From the NCBI RefSeq assembly GCF_014189855.1, contig NZ_BJFN01000006.1, positions 248,001 to 312,000 on the forward strand: a DNA stretch of 64,000 nt, read 5' to 3'. This document shows, in pieces, positions 7,502-15,035 of this stretch. The stretch comes from Buttiauxella sp. A111. Lineage in GTDB: Bacteria > Pseudomonadota > Gammaproteobacteria > Enterobacterales > Enterobacteriaceae. The position numbers and the translations under genes are program-made. Each line of letters starts with the position of its first letter. The stretch's first letter is position 1. The notes beneath the pieces were generated by a model. The model searched no databases and was not told where the DNA came from. It was given only the letters and a program-made list of their open reading frames with translations.

Positions 7502-8356
7502 TTACTTTTTATCCGCATCCAGTTTGGCAACATACGCCTTCACTACCTGATACACATAATCCTGACAGGCCAGGCCGGTTTGCGGATCGTATTTACCATC
7601 GTTGGTGATGTTATTGGATAACACGCGGATCCCGATGAACGGGATCGCAAATGCCGCTGCGGTTTGTGCGGCTGACGCGGTTTCCATCTCCTCCGCAGAG
7701 GTTTGATAGGCCGTGTGGAAATGGCTGATTCTGTCCAGTTCGCTGTTCCAGAGATCCGCCGAACCAATCACACCATCCACCACTTTACCTCGTGTGTATG
7801 TGCTTTTAACGCTGTCTGCAACCGCAAGCAACTGGGCGTCACCCGGGAATTTACGGATGGTGTGCGGGGTTTTATCTTCACCGGCACTGCCTTTAGAGGC
7901 CAACAGATCCATCGGTTTCCACTGCAGGGAATCGCTGCCTTCACCCTTCAGTTTGTGCGGGGTTTTGAACGCGCCCAGGTTTACGGAGTATTTGCCCAGC
8001 ACGATGTCATACACGTTCAACGCTGGGTCGTGGCCACCTGCCGTGCCCTGGTTAATGATTGCCACCGGATGAAACTGGGTGGCGGCAATCGCCGTGGCAG
8101 CAGCGGCGTTTGACATGCCCTTCAATGTCTCAGAAACCACCACCGGATAACCATCCACCGTGCCGCTCCAGAAACGCCAGCCGCCAATCTGCTGTTCCTT
8201 CGGGTTATCCAGGCGTTGAGCAAAATGTTCGGCTTCGATTGGCATTGCGCCCTGAACCACGATCGGCCCTTTCGGTGACGGCTGGGCCAAACTCAGGGAA
8301 GGCAGTACCAGGCAGCACGCTGACAGCGCCAGCAGACATGTTTTTTTGATGATCAT
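7502..8356 (-). CDS. Exported nucleoside phosphorylase-superfamily protein (MTA/SAH nucleosidase-like)
   Basis: A 284-residue protein with a typical Sec signal peptide (MIIKK, then a hydrophobic run, cleavage likely after SLAQ or nearby), followed by a PNP_UDP_1 fold. Fold motifs: VVQGAMPIEAEHF near residue 33, VVVSETLKGMSNAAAATAI near 72-90, INQGTAGGHDP near 101-111, and AEEMETASAA at 221-230. In bacterial Pfs enzymes the motif MEATA is followed 23 residues later by the catalytic aspartate of an ISD motif; here residue 248, at exactly that spacing from E225, is asparagine (LSNN). So it may be a periplasmic nucleosidase or phosphorylase with altered base preference, or a binding protein. It is a single gene followed by a hairpin. 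The exported location is unusual, since Pfs itself is cytoplasmic. Confidence 0.8.
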   Translation of the reverse strand: MIIKKTCLLALSACCLVLPSLSLAQPSPKGPIVVQGAMPIEAEHFAQRLDNPKEQQIGGWRFWSGTVDGYPVVVSETLKGMSNAAAATAIAATQFHPVAIINQGTAGGHDPALNVYDIVLGKYSVNLGAFKTPHKLKGEGSDSLQWKPMDLLASKGSAGEDKTPHTIRKFPGDAQLLAVADSVKSTYTRGKVVDGVIGSADLWNSELDRISHFHTAYQTSAEEMETASAAQTAAAFAIPFIGIRVLSNNITNDGKYDPQTGLACQDYVYQVVKAYVAKLDADKK

Positions 8357-8953: not shown

Positions 8954-10852
8954 TTAGCCGCTCAACTTCTCCTCAAACCTTAACAATCGCCCGGCATTAC
9001 CCAATACCAGCAGCGTGCTCAGGTTATGCAATATCGCGGCAATGACGGCACCGGACGCACCCAGCCAACCAAACGCCGCTGCGGCGACAATCACCAGCGT
9101 CCAGCCCAGGCCAATCATCACGTTCATCTGCAATGTGCGTCGGCACAGACGGCTTAATCGCACGCAGGTTCCCAGGCGGCGTAAATCATCGCCAATCAAT
9201 ACGATATCTGCCGATGCCATAGCGATATCTGAGCCGCCTGCGCCCATCGCCACGCCGACGACGCCCGCTTTTAGTGCCAGTGAATCGTTGATGCCATCGC
9301 CGACCACCATGGGCCGGAAGCCATTGTCGATATGTGCGCTGACTTGCTGCAATTTATCCGCGGGAAGCGCGCCGGCGATAACGTTGTTGATGCCGACGTT
9401 TTTCGCGATGCGTTCTGCCACAGCCTGGCGGTCACCGGTCAGTAACAACTGCTGGTTCAACCCTAACTCACGCAATTCTTTCATGGCGTTGGCGGCTTCG
9501 TCACGCAAGCTATCGGCCAGTAAAATCCAGCCACGAAAACGGCCTGCCAGCACCAGGCCAACAATCGGCCCGTCATGCAGTGGCTCTTGTGGTAAATCGA
9601 CAACCTGGGTTTTTAAGAGTTCATGCCTGCCGAGAAATGCCTCACCTGCCGCCGTGGTTGCCGACACGCCCAGGCCCTGATGTTCATGCACATTTTCCAG
9701 ATGTGGCCAGGCGCTTTGCGGCGCGATATTCACCAGCGCACAACTGACGGGATGGTTACTGGTTGCGCCCAGGCTTGCCGCCAGCGCAGAGAGTGCTTCT
9801 GGCGATTCGCCTGCTTGTGGGAGCAGCGCATGCAGTTGCAGTTTGCCGTGCGTGAGCGTGCCGGTTTTGTCGATGATGACCGCATTCAGTTCGGCTAATT
9901 CTTCGAGGAATGCCGCACCGCGAATTAAAATACCGTGACGTGCAGCGACGGTCAGACCGGCAATGGAGGTTGCGGGTGCTGAAAGCACCAGCGCACACGG
10001 GCAGGCGGCAACCAGCACCGCTAACATCGCCTGCGTATTTTGCGTTAAAAACCAGGTACTGGCCGCAATCAGTAACACCAGTAGCAGGTATCGCGCCGCG
10101 TGGCGTTCCAGTAAACGGGTGATTGGCGGGCTGGCCTGCTCGGCGCTTTGCATTAATGCCACAACTCGCCCAAGGGTTGAGGTTTCCCCGGTACGCGTGA
10201 CTTCAATGCGCAACCGCCCATCAAGATTTATCGCCCCGCCATAAACATTCATCCCGGCTTTTACTTCCTGCGGAACGGATTCTCCCGTTATGGGGGCTGT
10301 GTCGAGGCTGGCCTGGCCGTCCAGCACGCGCCCGTCGGCAGGCAATCTGTCACCCGCACGCACTTCCACAATATCGCCCGCTACCAGTTCATGGTTATCG
10401 ACCTCATGCAGATTGCCGTTTGCATCGAAGCGCCGTGCCCGGCTGCGGGTCAGTTTGCTCAATGATTCAATGGCTTCTTGCGAGCCAATCACGCTGCGTT
10501 CTTCGAGGATATGGCCGACGATCATAATCAGCGGTAACAACGCGGCGGTGAGCAAATCTCCGGTTGCCCACGAGCCAATCAGAGCCAGCGCCACCAGTTG
10601 ATCGGTAATGCCGTGCAAACTTGGATAACGCAGGCTGTAAAAGGCGTGGCGCAATACCGGGATGGCGACCATCAGCGAAGCGCTGCCCAATATGATATCG
10701 GCCACGGCAAGTTGATCGGGCGCCAGGACTCGCCACAGCAAACCCAAAATGAGCGTGCCACCGGCGGTCAACGCCAGGATGAGCTGGCGGGCTACCTGCC
10801 GCTGTTCTTGATGCGACAGCGCACCACCGGGATTCACAGAATGGGTGCTCAT
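8954..10852 (-). CDS. P1B-type metal-transporting ATPase (HmtA-like)
   Basis: A 632-residue P-type ATPase. Core motifs: TGES actuator motif (DTAPITGESVPQ, about 190-200), transmembrane metal site CPC in AACPCALVLSAPATS, phosphorylation site DKTGTLT, nucleotide-domain HP motif in TSNHPVS, and hinge GDGINDS. There is no N-terminal heavy-metal-associated domain; the protein starts with a short polar tail before the first membrane helices. The last helices read HNLSTLLVLGNAGRLL, resembling the HEGxT element of the cobalt/zinc P1B-4 group rather than the DxG of ZntA. It is the last gene of a four-gene operon, overlapping the upstream SPFH gene by 4 bp. Pseudomonas aeruginosa HmtA, reported as a zinc/copper importer beside HflK/HflC-like genes, is the nearest precedent I recall. 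Zinc uptake is inferred from the Zur-like box upstream. Confidence 0.88.
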   Translation of the reverse strand: MSTHSVNPGGALSHQEQRQVARQLILALTAGGTLILGLLWRVLAPDQLAVADIILGSASLMVAIPVLRHAFYSLRYPSLHGITDQLVALALIGSWATGDLLTAALLPLIMIVGHILEERSVIGSQEAIESLSKLTRSRARRFDANGNLHEVDNHELVAGDIVEVRAGDRLPADGRVLDGQASLDTAPITGESVPQEVKAGMNVYGGAINLDGRLRIEVTRTGETSTLGRVVALMQSAEQASPPITRLLERHAARYLLLVLLIAASTWFLTQNTQAMLAVLVAACPCALVLSAPATSIAGLTVAARHGILIRGAAFLEELAELNAVIIDKTGTLTHGKLQLHALLPQAGESPEALSALAASLGATSNHPVSCALVNIAPQSAWPHLENVHEHQGLGVSATTAAGEAFLGRHELLKTQVVDLPQEPLHDGPIVGLVLAGRFRGWILLADSLRDEAANAMKELRELGLNQQLLLTGDRQAVAERIAKNVGINNVIAGALPADKLQQVSAHIDNGFRPMVVGDGINDSLALKAGVVGVAMGAGGSDIAMASADIVLIGDDLRRLGTCVRLSRLCRRTLQMNVMIGLGWTLVIVAAAAFGWLGASGAVIAAILHNLSTLLVLGNAGRLLRFEEKLSG

Positions 10853-11901
10853 GGTTTAGAAGGTTCCTTTTGCCCGGCCGCTTGCAGGATCATGTTCGCA
10901 TCATCCTGCGGGGCGACGGTGATGACGGATGCAGCCTGCGCGAGAATCGCCGCAATGCGTTCGCGGTACACTCGCGCTAATAAATCTGGGTCGTTTGGAC
11001 TCCTGGCCAGCCGGTTCACCATCGCCGTATCGGACTGGGCTTTTGCCACGTTTTCTCGCGCCTGCGCTTGTGCTGTCTGGCGTAACTGATCCGCAAGCTG
11101 CGTGGATTTCTGTCGAATTACAGACGCATCGGTATTCGCGGTCGCAATAGCTTGCGATGCCTGCTGGCTGGCGGTTAACACCGCATTGAAGGCGGTGACG
11201 GTAGGAGTAGGCAGCGTGGATTGCACCGTCACGCGCTCAAGTGTGATACCCAGCGAACTGCCCGATTGCGTCAGGCGTTGCAGGTTCTGTTCGATGTTGT
11301 GCTGCACATCGACCCGCAGGCGTTCGCGCTGTTGAGCAACATTCAAATCGCTGCTAACCATTTCCGGGCGCGCAACCAGGATCGTATCCAGATCCCTTGA
11401 TGCACACACGGCAATGGCTGCGCGCTGAACCAGACGGTCGAGTGCCGGAATCACGTGTTCACCCTGCAACACATAATCCATTGGCGAAATGACGCGATAA
11501 AACACGCTGATATCCAGTTGCACCACCGCCGTATCACCCGTGAGCAGATAACCTGAACCGGCCAGCGCATCGCTGCTGCTGTCGCCGCGAGCATCCGCAT
11601 GCTGTGCGTCGGTCGAACGCAAAAGCGCCGTAACGTGATGTTCGATAACGCGGTCTGGAGCAGGCACCATCACCACATCGTCAATGGGCTTCGGCCAGGT
11701 TAGCAACAAACCCGGCTCGGCCACGCGCTGCTCAGCGCCAAAATGCAGCACCACCGCGCGGCTGTCGGCGGGGATTTGGCGAATGTTAGAGAACAACCAC
11801 GACGCAGCCGCCAGCAGCGTCAGCCCATACAACGCGTAAAAAGCGAGGCGTATCGACTGCGTCCACGGGCCAACCGACTTTTTGGTCTGGATATCACTCA
11901 T
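10849..11901 (-). CDS. SPFH-domain membrane protein, HflK-like (third of operon)
   Basis: A 350-residue protein with a short cytoplasmic N-terminus, one transmembrane segment (about residues 15-37), and a SPFH/band-7 domain (about 40-230; GYLLTGDTAVVQLDISVFYRV is typical of HflK). An alanine/glutamine-rich helical region follows (about 230-300), probably coiled coil. The start is set at the ATG at 11901, which overlaps the previous gene by 8 bp; an earlier in-frame ATG at 11952 would lie deep in that gene. It overlaps the ATPase gene by 4 bp. HflK/HflC proteins form large membrane cages that control FtsH protease; here the partner is more likely the adjacent ATPase. Its exact role is unknown. 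Confidence 0.82.
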   Translation of the reverse strand: MSDIQTKKSVGPWTQSIRLAFYALYGLTLLAAASWLFSNIRQIPADSRAVVLHFGAEQRVAEPGLLLTWPKPIDDVVMVPAPDRVIEHHVTALLRSTDAQHADARGDSSSDALAGSGYLLTGDTAVVQLDISVFYRVISPMDYVLQGEHVIPALDRLVQRAAIAVCASRDLDTILVARPEMVSSDLNVAQQRERLRVDVQHNIEQNLQRLTQSGSSLGITLERVTVQSTLPTPTVTAFNAVLTASQQASQAIATANTDASVIRQKSTQLADQLRQTAQAQARENVAKAQSDTAMVNRLARSPNDPDLLARVYRERIAAILAQAASVITVAPQDDANMILQAAGQKEPSKP

Positions 11902-12877
11902 GGGTTTTATCCAGTTTCGGTCCTTCGACCAGCAGGCGGAACGGTGCGGCATCGGTGCGTAATACCAGACGGGTACTGGAATTCACCACACCACTCAGTG
12001 CATCAAGCTGGCGTAACAGGCGATAAAGCTGCGGCGAGCTGGCGTAGGCTTTGCCATAAATTTCTGCCGCCTGTGCCTGAGACTGCGCTTCGATGTCAGC
12101 GGCCTGAACCTGTGCCTGCGCTTCCACAATACGTGCGTCACGTTCTGCCGCAGAGCGGATTTCTGCTGCCGCGCGCTTCCCTTCAGCGGTGCGTTCGGTG
12201 GCAATGGTTTCGCGCTCGGCACGCATTCTATCGACCGTGGCGTTGAGCGTCACCGCCGGTAGCGTCAGGCGTTCGGTGCCAACTTGCACCAGCCGAATCC
12301 CATAACTTTCCAGCAGCGGCTGGCTGATTTGCGCCTGCAAATGGGATTCAAACTGGTTGAGTTGCACGTGCTGGCTGTCGGTATTCACCAGTTGCGAGAG
12401 GGTAAATCCGCTGGCGGTGGTTTCCAGCGCTGAACCTAAATAGGCACGGATTTGCCGTGCTGCTTCGTCCGGCTGGTTTTGCACTGCACGCATAAAACGC
12501 TGTACATGTTCCGGCGTGTTATCGACCTGCCAGACGGCAAAAGACTGCACGATAATCCGCAGGCCATCGCGCGTGCCAACATCCTGTAAGCCGCTCGACG
12601 TGGTGCGTAGACGCAAATCCACGGCGGTGGACATTTCAAACGGTGCGGGCAATCGCCAGGCAAGGCCAGGGTCGAGTAACACGCGCACCGGATTGCCAAA
12701 GCGGGTGATGATCAGTGATTCACCAGAGCGCACCTGCACAAGACTTGCCGCCGCGACCAGCAAAACAACCAGCAATCCCGCGCCCGCAATGCGTTTCCAT
12801 GCTCCCTTTTTCTGAGTGTCCGAAGCAGAATGAGGGTTGTGTTGGCAACCACAACCATGATGATGTGAATGGCTCAA
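11894..12877 (-). CDS. SPFH-domain protein, HflC-like, with His/Cys-rich N-terminus
   Basis: A 327-residue HflC-like protein. I place the start at the TTG at 12877, eight bases after AGGAG and overlapping the previous stop as TTGA; the longer frame beginning at 13042 reads through the upstream gene. The first residues are then MSHSHHHGCGCQHNPH, a dense cluster of histidine and cysteine typical of metal binding and not a feature of HflC. A transmembrane segment follows (about 28-48), then the SPFH domain (RSGESLIITRFGNPVRVLLDPGLAWRLP style opening), and an alanine/glutamate-rich helical tail with repeated AQ pairs. The gene is translationally coupled to both neighbours. The metal-binding tail fits a zinc-handling role (inference). 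Confidence 0.82.
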   Translation of the reverse strand: MSHSHHHGCGCQHNPHSASDTQKKGAWKRIAGAGLLVVLLVAAASLVQVRSGESLIITRFGNPVRVLLDPGLAWRLPAPFEMSTAVDLRLRTTSSGLQDVGTRDGLRIIVQSFAVWQVDNTPEHVQRFMRAVQNQPDEAARQIRAYLGSALETTASGFTLSQLVNTDSQHVQLNQFESHLQAQISQPLLESYGIRLVQVGTERLTLPAVTLNATVDRMRAERETIATERTAEGKRAAAEIRSAAERDARIVEAQAQVQAADIEAQSQAQAAEIYGKAYASSPQLYRLLRQLDALSGVVNSSTRLVLRTDAAPFRLLVEGPKLDKTHE

Positions 12878-14838
12878 CGGGAAAGCTCCTGTGTCGGTTT
12901 TGATGGCGCATCGCGCCTTGTGGCATCGTTCAAAGAGGGAAATTCGCGCAGGTCGATAGTGGGTGGTGAGCCCGCGCCGATGCGGTGGTCGATAATCAGC
13001 AACGGGCTGTGGCCGAGTGTCTGGCGTAGCTGGCTGTACCATAATTCATCGACAAACACCTGCCCCGACTGCGCCACTGCCTGTTTTTGTGCGGCGAAAC
13101 GCACCGCCGTGGACTGTGCTTTGCTGGTCACCTCGGTGGCATTCATGAGTGCCTGATTTTGGCGGCTGGTCGCGGTGGTTTGGGCGCTGGCAGCCAGTTC
13201 AGCGGCATGTCCACGTTCGCGGGATATCAGCGCCTGAGCCGAAATTTGCGCCGCCTGCACACCATGGAAAGCATCAGCTGCGCCTGCCGGAGGATGGATG
13301 GCTTCGACCACGGTTGAGAGCAGTTCGACGCCTGAATGCAGGTTATCGAGTTTTTGCTGCACCGCTTGCTTAATCTGGTTGGCTAAGGCGTTGCGTTGGT
13401 CACCCAATAGCTGCTCAAGCGTCTGAGAGGAAAACTGATGTACCAGCACCTGATTCGCGGTGCTGCGAATCAATTCCTGGAGATTGGTGCTGTGATACGT
13501 CGCCGCCAGCGCGGCGTTGTCGCTCATGCCAATGCGCCACATAAACCGCACATCGCTATTAATGATTTGCAGACTCTGTTGGCTACCGCTTTGGCTGGCA
13601 ATAATCTGCGCTTTATCAAAACTGTGGATAGCATCCCACAGGCGATCGGCACTTTGCGGCGCCTCGCCTTCCGCGCTTGCTAAAGGCTCTGTTGCACTAT
13701 CGGGGTCTTCGCCTGCAGCTAACTCGTGTACCTGACCATTTTCCGTGAGTATCACTTGTCCGAACGGCCACGGTAGCCCGTAATGCAGGCCGGATGACAA
13801 CACTTTTACGGGATTACCAAAGCGTTCATAAATCCCACGCTGGGTGGCTGAAACTTGCTGCATCCCGGTCAACAGCCAACCACAAAGCAGCATCAACGCC
13901 AGCATGGGTAAGAATGCGCGTTTCAGAACGGTGAAAGCCCATAACTGGCGTAAATCAATTCCGAAGTGTTGATGTAGCTCATGCTGCAAAAAGAGTAACG
14001 GGCGTGGAGGCCAGACAAGCTGCGCGGCCAGTTGGCTCTGAGCGAGGAATGCAGGCTCGCACCCTTCTTCATTTGGCGGTGTGAACAGTGAAAACAGCCC
14101 GCGCAGCAGGAACTCAAACGCCACCAGAATGAGCAGAATGGCAAGGAGATTGACCAGCAATGGGATATTGGCTGTAGGGAAAATGAGAGTTGGCAAAGAG
14201 AGAAATTGCACCGCCAGAGTCAGGCGTAGTAACGGCGCAATCAATTTTGCTTCAGGCCAGGCTTCGTCTGCGGTGGCGGCCAGGTGGCGTTCAGCCACTA
14301 ACGTGGCAAACATCGCTGCCGCAAGGATCCCGACTGCAACCCAGCGCAGGTTGCCTTCATCGAGCGCAAGGTAGTTAGCGGATACTCCCGCTTGCGTGAC
14401 AAACAGGGCAAACAGCGCCATTGACCCAAGCCAAACGCCATCGCTCTTGAGCAATACATTGATGCGGCTGAAGTTGATGGGAATAAGCGCCCAAAGGCGT
14501 TGGTAAATCGTCGGCGGTAATTCGGCTTCGACTTCCGCTTCAGGTTTTAGCCGTGGCGAGAACTTCGCAGCCCGCCACTGGCAAATTCGCTGTGCATTAA
14601 ATAAAGAGGTCGCGAGCAAAATCAGGGCAGCGGCATTGCTGGTTAAAAACGTTGGCCAGCGGGAAGATGGCTCGAAAATACTGGCAATCAGCGCCACCAC
14701 CATCATCAGGAAAATCACGGCGCTTAAGCCAAAAACTAATCTTGCGGTAAGCATGGCCTGCGCGGGAGCCAGGGCGTAACGAGCCTGAGAGCAAAACGGT
14801 GAACGTTCCGTAGGTTCAGTCAATTGGATGGGCTGCAT
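12874..14838 (-). CDS. Large HflK-like SPFH protein with N-terminal membrane domain
   Basis: A 654-residue protein, first of the operon. The N-terminal half has about six hydrophobic segments (for example near 30-52, 65-80, 132-150, 165-180, 205-245), then a further membrane segment near 312-330 leading into a SPFH domain (VSATQRGIYERFGNPVKVLSSGLHYGLPWPFG-type opening at about 335-365) and a helical alanine-rich tail. Genuine HflK is about 420 residues with a single transmembrane helix, so this is an extended relative. It starts 49 bp downstream of a Zur-like box and is coupled to the following HflC-like gene by a TTGA overlap. It could scaffold or gate the P-type ATPase encoded at the end of the operon; that is inference. 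Confidence 0.82.
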   Translation of the reverse strand: MQPIQLTEPTERSPFCSQARYALAPAQAMLTARLVFGLSAVIFLMMVVALIASIFEPSSRWPTFLTSNAAALILLATSLFNAQRICQWRAAKFSPRLKPEAEVEAELPPTIYQRLWALIPINFSRINVLLKSDGVWLGSMALFALFVTQAGVSANYLALDEGNLRWVAVGILAAAMFATLVAERHLAATADEAWPEAKLIAPLLRLTLAVQFLSLPTLIFPTANIPLLVNLLAILLILVAFEFLLRGLFSLFTPPNEEGCEPAFLAQSQLAAQLVWPPRPLLFLQHELHQHFGIDLRQLWAFTVLKRAFLPMLALMLLCGWLLTGMQQVSATQRGIYERFGNPVKVLSSGLHYGLPWPFGQVILTENGQVHELAAGEDPDSATEPLASAEGEAPQSADRLWDAIHSFDKAQIIASQSGSQQSLQIINSDVRFMWRIGMSDNAALAATYHSTNLQELIRSTANQVLVHQFSSQTLEQLLGDQRNALANQIKQAVQQKLDNLHSGVELLSTVVEAIHPPAGAADAFHGVQAAQISAQALISRERGHAAELAASAQTTATSRQNQALMNATEVTSKAQSTAVRFAAQKQAVAQSGQVFVDELWYSQLRQTLGHSPLLIIDHRIGAGSPPTIDLREFPSLNDATRRDAPSKPTQELSR

Positions 14839-14886
14839 GGAGTCATTATTGTCAGGCGCAGGACGGCTACGTCATTGCGGTTTAAT

Positions 14887-14916
14887 TGTTACCATATAAC
14901 ATATCATGATTGTCAA
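14887..14916 (-). promoter_or_regulatory. Zur-like box and promoter of the SPFH/ATPase operon
   Basis: TGTTACCATATAACA at 14887-14901 matches the enterobacterial Zur core TGTTATA-N-TATAACA at 12 of 14 positions. On the minus strand a consensus -35 TTGACA lies at 14911-14916; the box covers the space where the -10 (17 bases on, a weak GGTAAC) would be, the usual layout for repression. It is 49 bp upstream of the first gene. Zur represses zinc-uptake genes when zinc is plentiful (established), so the operon would be induced by zinc starvation (inference). Confidence 0.65.
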
Positions 14917-15035
14917 TTAACCGTAAACGAAGCGCGGGTAACCGTTTGTACAAACGCAGTCAGCGGGGGAGTCGGGGGGAGGCGATACGCTAAAAGCGGA
15001 TAGCCATCAAAGCTATCCGCTCGAAAGGGAATTGA

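Follow-up and report, generated by a model that had tools for sequence, protein, structure and literature searches.

Gene organization of the cassette

The window, the whole 64,000-nucleotide stretch of Buttiauxella sp. A111 DNA that was analysed, contains four co-directional genes on its minus strand between 14838 and 8954. As shown by the open reading frame list and profile search, three of them encode SPFH/Band_7 proteins and one encodes a heavy-metal P-type ATPase (Table 1). SPFH protein 1 has about six membrane-like stretches in a hydrophobic N-terminal half, and its SPFH domain spans residues 328-545 (Pfam, hydropathy). The named loci matched by this protein, nine in number, all belong to Buttiauxella (78-83% identity). 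In SPFH protein 2, an N-terminal tail, (M)SHSHHHGCGCQHNPHS, precedes the single membrane helix found by hydropathy.

Table 1. Positions of the cassette genes and upstream elements in the window.
Feature	Position	Strand	Description and evidence
Likely promoter	14898..14927	-	TTTACG (14927-14922), 18 bases, TATGTT (14903-14898); putative promoter from alignment
Zur-like box TGTTATATGGTAACA	14887..14901	-	12/14 core positions against TGTTATANTATAACA; 48 bases 5' of ATG
SPFH protein 1	12874..14838	-	654 aa; Pfam Band_7, hydropathy
SPFH protein 2, HflC-like	11894..12877	-	327 aa, TTG start; Band_7 and HflC matches, homologue comparison
SPFH protein 3, HflK-like	10849..11901	-	350 aa counted from the likely ATG at 11901
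Probable HmtA-type P1B ATPase	8954..10852	-	632 aa, CPC; profile, alignment, structure-sequence matches

The second gene most likely starts at TTG 12877, with a 4-base overlap with the stop of the first gene. This start was preferred over an ATG lying 169 bases inside the first gene because the extended frame is broken by stops in several Buttiauxella homologues. The longest open reading frame of the third gene begins at 11952; from our reading of the sequence, translation probably starts at 11901, which would overlap the second gene by 8 bases. The pump gene overlaps the third by 4 bases. Open reading frames, domains and overlaps thus bear out, at this place, the tightly overlapping four-gene operon of three SPFH proteins and a P1B ATPase that had been proposed in an earlier note on this DNA. 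Downstream of the pump gene, also on the minus strand, a phosphorylase-superfamily protein with a signal-like N-terminus is encoded (window 7502-8356), with no sign of belonging to the cassette.

Relation to the hmtA locus of Pseudomonas aeruginosa

In the hmtA locus of P. aeruginosa (PA2434-PA2439), a P1B ATPase gene is likewise accompanied by three SPFH genes, one of the HflK family, one of the HflC family and a third. Two features of that locus were looked for in the window and both are present, a P1B gene behind three SPFH genes and a predicted Zur box upstream of the first of these. Strain PAO1 has, by locus numbers, the further genes PA2436 and PA2434, whereas the window cassette consists of four genes with none between them. 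Judged by gene arrangement, the cassette is likely of the HmtA-locus kind. The link to HmtA made in the earlier note fits by the same arrangement, that of P. aeruginosa being taken from papers. Since the cassette matches this locus, the kind of system is already known. In strain PA14 the SPFH genes of the locus are named paFlo5-7 in the text available of PMC13086221. In the literature searched, the cassette was not found beyond the cited Pseudomonas papers, the Enterobacteriaceae included, and HmtA and Hfl proteins were absent from the main text of papers on Zur regulons and Paracoccus.

Promoter and Zur-like box

A TTTACG-18-TATGTT promoter candidate is present in all ten aligned Buttiauxella, and its -10 element TATGTT overlaps the Zur-like box. 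The sequence TTGACA, formerly read as a consensus -35, occurs in the window strain only and is missing at that place in the nine other aligned Buttiauxella; that reading was not upheld, and the conserved pair takes its place. A palindrome, TTTGTACAAA, lies 5' of the promoter at window 14954-14945. Its core TGTACAA is kept in 10/10 Buttiauxella, and it is possibly the site of a second regulator.

The box was scored against TGTTATANTATAACA, which we take to be the Zur core consensus. The 15-base, 12/14 box reported by the earlier note was recovered at its place before the ATG, but it is not a rare sequence: genome-wide, 12 sites reach this score or a higher one, versus 14 for a reversed control pattern. 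A 12/14 match is therefore no evidence by itself, and such matches, no commoner than control matches, would fit a chance AT-rich palindrome in an operon controlled by other means. The box is credible because of its position before the operon and its conservation. Sites scoring 12-13/14 were found in nine further Buttiauxella, and sites scoring 13/14 in a second genus. In an alignment of ten Buttiauxella with two loci of the second genus, mean column identity is 52%, but within the box 12 of 15 columns do not vary. The distance from box to aligned start ranges from 28 to 63 bases across the ten Buttiauxella.

A score of at least 11/14 before the operon was found in 24 of 39 loci, including 10/10 Buttiauxella, and a score of at least 10 in 31 of 39; duplicates L036 and L037 are dropped from these counts, L078, L079, L080 and L081 were left unscored, and loci of the same genus are non-independent. 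When 200 bases before the start were scored by script in 35 loci, 18 reached at least 11/14, scores attained by 0 to 2.3% of shuffles of the same stretch. Seven more loci (L024-L027, L033, L070 and L071) scored 10/14, which was equalled by 1.3 to 14% of shuffles, so these boxes are weak singly and near chance. The script missed a box in 10 of the 35 loci. Two of these, L066 and L068, nonetheless carry an 11/14 box and were missed because a false upstream ATG was taken. Outside the script scoring, L002, L004, L007 and L039 scored 12, 12, 13 and 13 of 14; the scores of these four loci and of L066 and L068 are given without shuffle control. No box above 9/14 was present in 8 of the 39 loci (9 in L021, L022, L028, L032, L041, L042 and L073; 8 in L043). 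The promoter of L034 contains two Zur-like palindromes, scoring 13 and 12 of 14, at 172 and 99 bases upstream of the first ATG.

That 15 of 39 loci score 10 or fewer of 14 would again suit a box arisen by chance. However, the site recurs in every Buttiauxella aligned, its columns hold across two genera, and it is also found in other genera with differing flanks. On this conservation a chance origin was rejected, and we regard it as highly improbable.

Three one-mismatch Zur-like sites exist in the genome, one of them between znuA and znuCB. The site at G000:C2:122620-122634 (L045) precedes a second ABC-3-type metal transporter operon. The palindrome at G000:C3:486273-486287 (L046) lies some 290 bases upstream of a 2OG-Fe(II) dioxygenase open reading frame, the sole neighbour scanned, and has no clear partner.

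Probable zinc-starvation control

Two FUR-family matches were found in the genome, one of which aligns with the full length of E. coli Zur (4mtd; 171 residues, 315.9 bits). In P. aeruginosa, the promoter of the first gene of the hmtA locus is Zur-bound and the locus is induced by zinc starvation, and the window shares a conserved predicted box at that place. Expression of the five genes tabulated for PA2434-PA2439 rose 5.6 to 14.4-fold when znuA was mutated, and a weak putative Zur site (E 0.11) was given for them, in the portion of PMC4542158 available. Zur of P. aeruginosa shifted the promoter of PA2439, the first gene, only with zinc (PMC8531726, available text). The abundance of HmtA and of the SPFH proteins rose upon zinc depletion, a change called significant for PA2438 and PA2439 (PMC11761036, in part). 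N-acetylcysteine slightly raised PA2437-PA2439, among zinc genes (PMC9431628, excerpt), and HmtA is listed as a Zur-regulated uptake system in the passages available of PMC8456098.

Other reports count against zinc control. The mRNA of hmtA was low and did not drop upon zinc addition (PMC8531726), and p values for HmtA itself in the zinc-depletion proteomics were 0.052 and 0.121 (PMC11761036). A review, in its accessible sections, excepts hmtA from Zur binding (PMC10393844), contrary to the first-gene result of PMC8531726. Taken together, the conserved box, the E. coli-type Zur and the P. aeruginosa counterpart support the Zur control and zinc-starvation role claimed earlier. A zinc-starvation role of the cassette is well supported, with Zur binding at the window box as a prediction from sequence.

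Class and transport direction of the pump

The CPC motif is kept in 29/29 cassette pumps aligned, which represent 29 of the 39 loci. The transport-site residues of ZntA are, as we presume for their numbers and role, K693 and D714. The corresponding positions are T and H in all 29 cassette pumps, and the window pump reads LGWT and LHNLST there; the ZntA-like pump of the same genome keeps K and D. Among the P1B-2 features tested in the window pump, CPC is thus present and the K and D are absent. No N-terminal metal-binding domain was found in the pump by Pfam search. The nearest solved structures were 7qbz (259 bits) and 4umv (250 bits), which we take to be sCoaT, a cadmium-type ATPase of class P1B-4, and ZntA of class P1B-2. 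With ZntA (4umv) the pump shares the P1B match and CPC but differs at the K and D positions. Its H..ST region is like that of 7qbz (LHNLST aligns with HEGST), although 7qbz has SPC where the pump has CPC and HEGST where the pump has HNLST. Substitution by T and H, together with the structure matches, indicates that the pump departs from the typical P1B-2 exporter, notwithstanding its acceptance by the general model TIGR01512. The genome also encodes ZntA- and CopA-like pumps of its own.

Most P1B ATPases export, and by this family rule the cassette pump might work outward as well. It could load a periplasmic zinc enzyme during starvation or remove a competing cytosolic metal, and the His-rich tails described below would then be cytosolic loading sites, a role that His/Cys-rich cytosolic tails fit equally. 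P1B copper import is treated as rare in the part available of PMC9147137, and that of PMC3781045 describes HmtA in one place as a low-affinity permease and in another as an efflux system. The review PMC10393844 reports that HmtA over-expression made cells hypersensitive to zinc and copper and raised their intracellular metal, and calls for more analysis to confirm import. The raised intracellular zinc and copper argue against an outward pump, as do the missing lysine and aspartate of ZntA in every pump compared, and uptake suits Zur control better. We consider outward transport unlikely. Import of metal by the window pump is likely but unproven; it is drawn from the HmtA over-expression phenotype, the sequence being silent on direction.

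SPFH proteins and their His-rich tails

Proteins 1, 2 and 3 scored 69.6, 95.6 and 92.3 against NCBIfam equivalog cut-offs of 159.4 (HflK), 134.4 (HflC) and 159.4 (HflK), respectively, each falling below its cut-off. They resemble the HflK/HflC cage around FtsH (7vhp, 7wi3, 9cz1) in the SPFH domain and sequence match, and in the one membrane helix of proteins 2 and 3. The cassette differs from that cage in its scores below the family cut-offs, in having three partners, in the hydrophobic N-terminal half of protein 1 and in its tie to a pump. A cage of SPFH proteins around the pump is a plausible hypothesis by homology to HflK/HflC. AlphaFold2 modelling of the first SPFH protein from ten Buttiauxella sequences gave a mean pLDDT of 38, too low to lend a cage structural support.

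In 29 of 39 loci, the first 40 residues of the HflC-like protein include at least 4 His, with starts as chosen by script. In the 10 loci whose HflC-like protein is tail-less (L021, L022, L029-L035 and L041), the pump N-terminus is His-rich instead. Nine of these 10 pumps show at least 3 His by script; the tail of the L022 pump, visible in the pump alignment, was missed because a later start was chosen there. Six of the 29 loci (L028, L042, L043, L066, L070 and L073) have tails on both proteins. The tail of the HflC-like protein is placed in the cytosol, where it probably lies, by the known topology of HflC and by basic residues ahead of the first helix. It may bind zinc.

It is also conceivable that the SPFH trio is a version of HflKC for zinc starvation, which works on the zinc protease FtsH and serves the neighbouring pump only indirectly. 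The closest matches of the trio among solved structures are HflK and HflC from the FtsH complex, and a link to FtsH is mentioned in the available portion of a 2025 proteomics paper (PMC11761036). Against this, SPFH and pump genes stand together at every locus read and in the same 10 plasmids, the pump has a tail where the SPFH protein is without one, and the genome already encodes a standard HflC elsewhere. An action on FtsH is therefore rather doubtful in our view.

For the preferred reading, a cage that holds the pump, no report of an SPFH-pump interaction was found in the literature searched, nor a reported role for the SPFH proteins beside HmtA. A PA14 mutant deleted for all three SPFH genes formed about 20% less biofilm and, according to the discussion, was attenuated in virulence towards larvae (PMC13086221). 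The main text of that paper, as far as available, has no HmtA and no P-type, names zinc once (about FtsH) and reports no zinc test of the deletion (PMC13086221).

Distribution and mobility

Within the family, 25 of 392 genomes, spread over 9 of 154 genera, carry a pump of at least 60% identity. The matches listed below these reach at most 37% identity, a range that includes ZntA and CopA. Among 398 genomes of the phylum, 11 had a match: three in the genus of the window, seven in one family of the same class (68-71% identity) and one outside the class. A class-wide draw of 369 genomes contained no copy besides that of the window (1/369), a figure that speaks to patchiness only. In a search of 72,556 plasmids, the pump was found in 10, and a relative of the first SPFH gene in the same 10.

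The four genes were in order in 36/36 distinct loci from genome assemblies, some on short contigs that could be plasmids, and in 5/5 annotated plasmid loci (of the 10 plasmids, 2 lacked annotation and 3 were not fetched). Twenty flanking open reading frames from 11 loci were compared; those with a family hit vary between genera, and a link to fixed neighbour genes was thus unsupported. Inter-locus distances of 23 loci agree across the four proteins with r 0.92 to 0.95, shared descent being uncontrolled in this comparison. We take the cassette to move as one unit. For P. aeruginosa, it has already been proposed that the three SPFH genes spread by horizontal transfer (PMC13086221, in the text available). 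One cassette (L041, NZ_CP142847.1) is carried by a Klebsiella aerogenes plasmid that was typed as conjugative, with a Tn3-family transposase nearby. The Paraburkholderia copy has genes for a GTP-binding protein and a zinc ABC transporter within a few kb, and a copper chaperone gene adjoins it, so that copper may also be a substrate.

Proposed mechanism and significance

Our main reading, to which we give a probability of roughly 60%, is that the window carries a cassette of HmtA type that Zur represses and zinc starvation induces, in which the pump imports, an SPFH ring or cage holds the pump and a His-rich tail catches zinc. When zinc is plentiful, Zn-Zur would occupy the box over the -10 element and block transcription. 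As zinc falls, the three SPFH proteins and the pump would be made together. The pump would most likely bring periplasmic Zn2+, and perhaps copper too, into the cytosol and back up ZnuABC, while the three SPFH proteins would most likely assemble into a mixed ring or cage in the membrane and hold the pump. A cytosolic His-rich tail, on the HflC-like protein or on the pump, could catch zinc upon release. Gene content, conservation of the box, linkage, transport-site substitutions and tails were observed in the loci compared; induction and Zur binding are reported in P. aeruginosa and would apply here by analogy; direction, cage and tail function we infer.

A more specific proposal would tie reversal of an inward P1B pump to the lost lysine-aspartate pair of ZntA, and would set this pump in a dedicated three-protein SPFH cage with zinc-trapping cytosolic His-rich tails, as a mobile scaffolded metal importer. 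We regard this full combination as speculative and improbable as a whole.

True import by any P1B ATPase is disputed. The cassette is a small transferable unit outside Pseudomonas, and its T and H positions and its tails make the question of direction testable. It also gives a reason to try existing SPFH deletion strains under zinc starvation.
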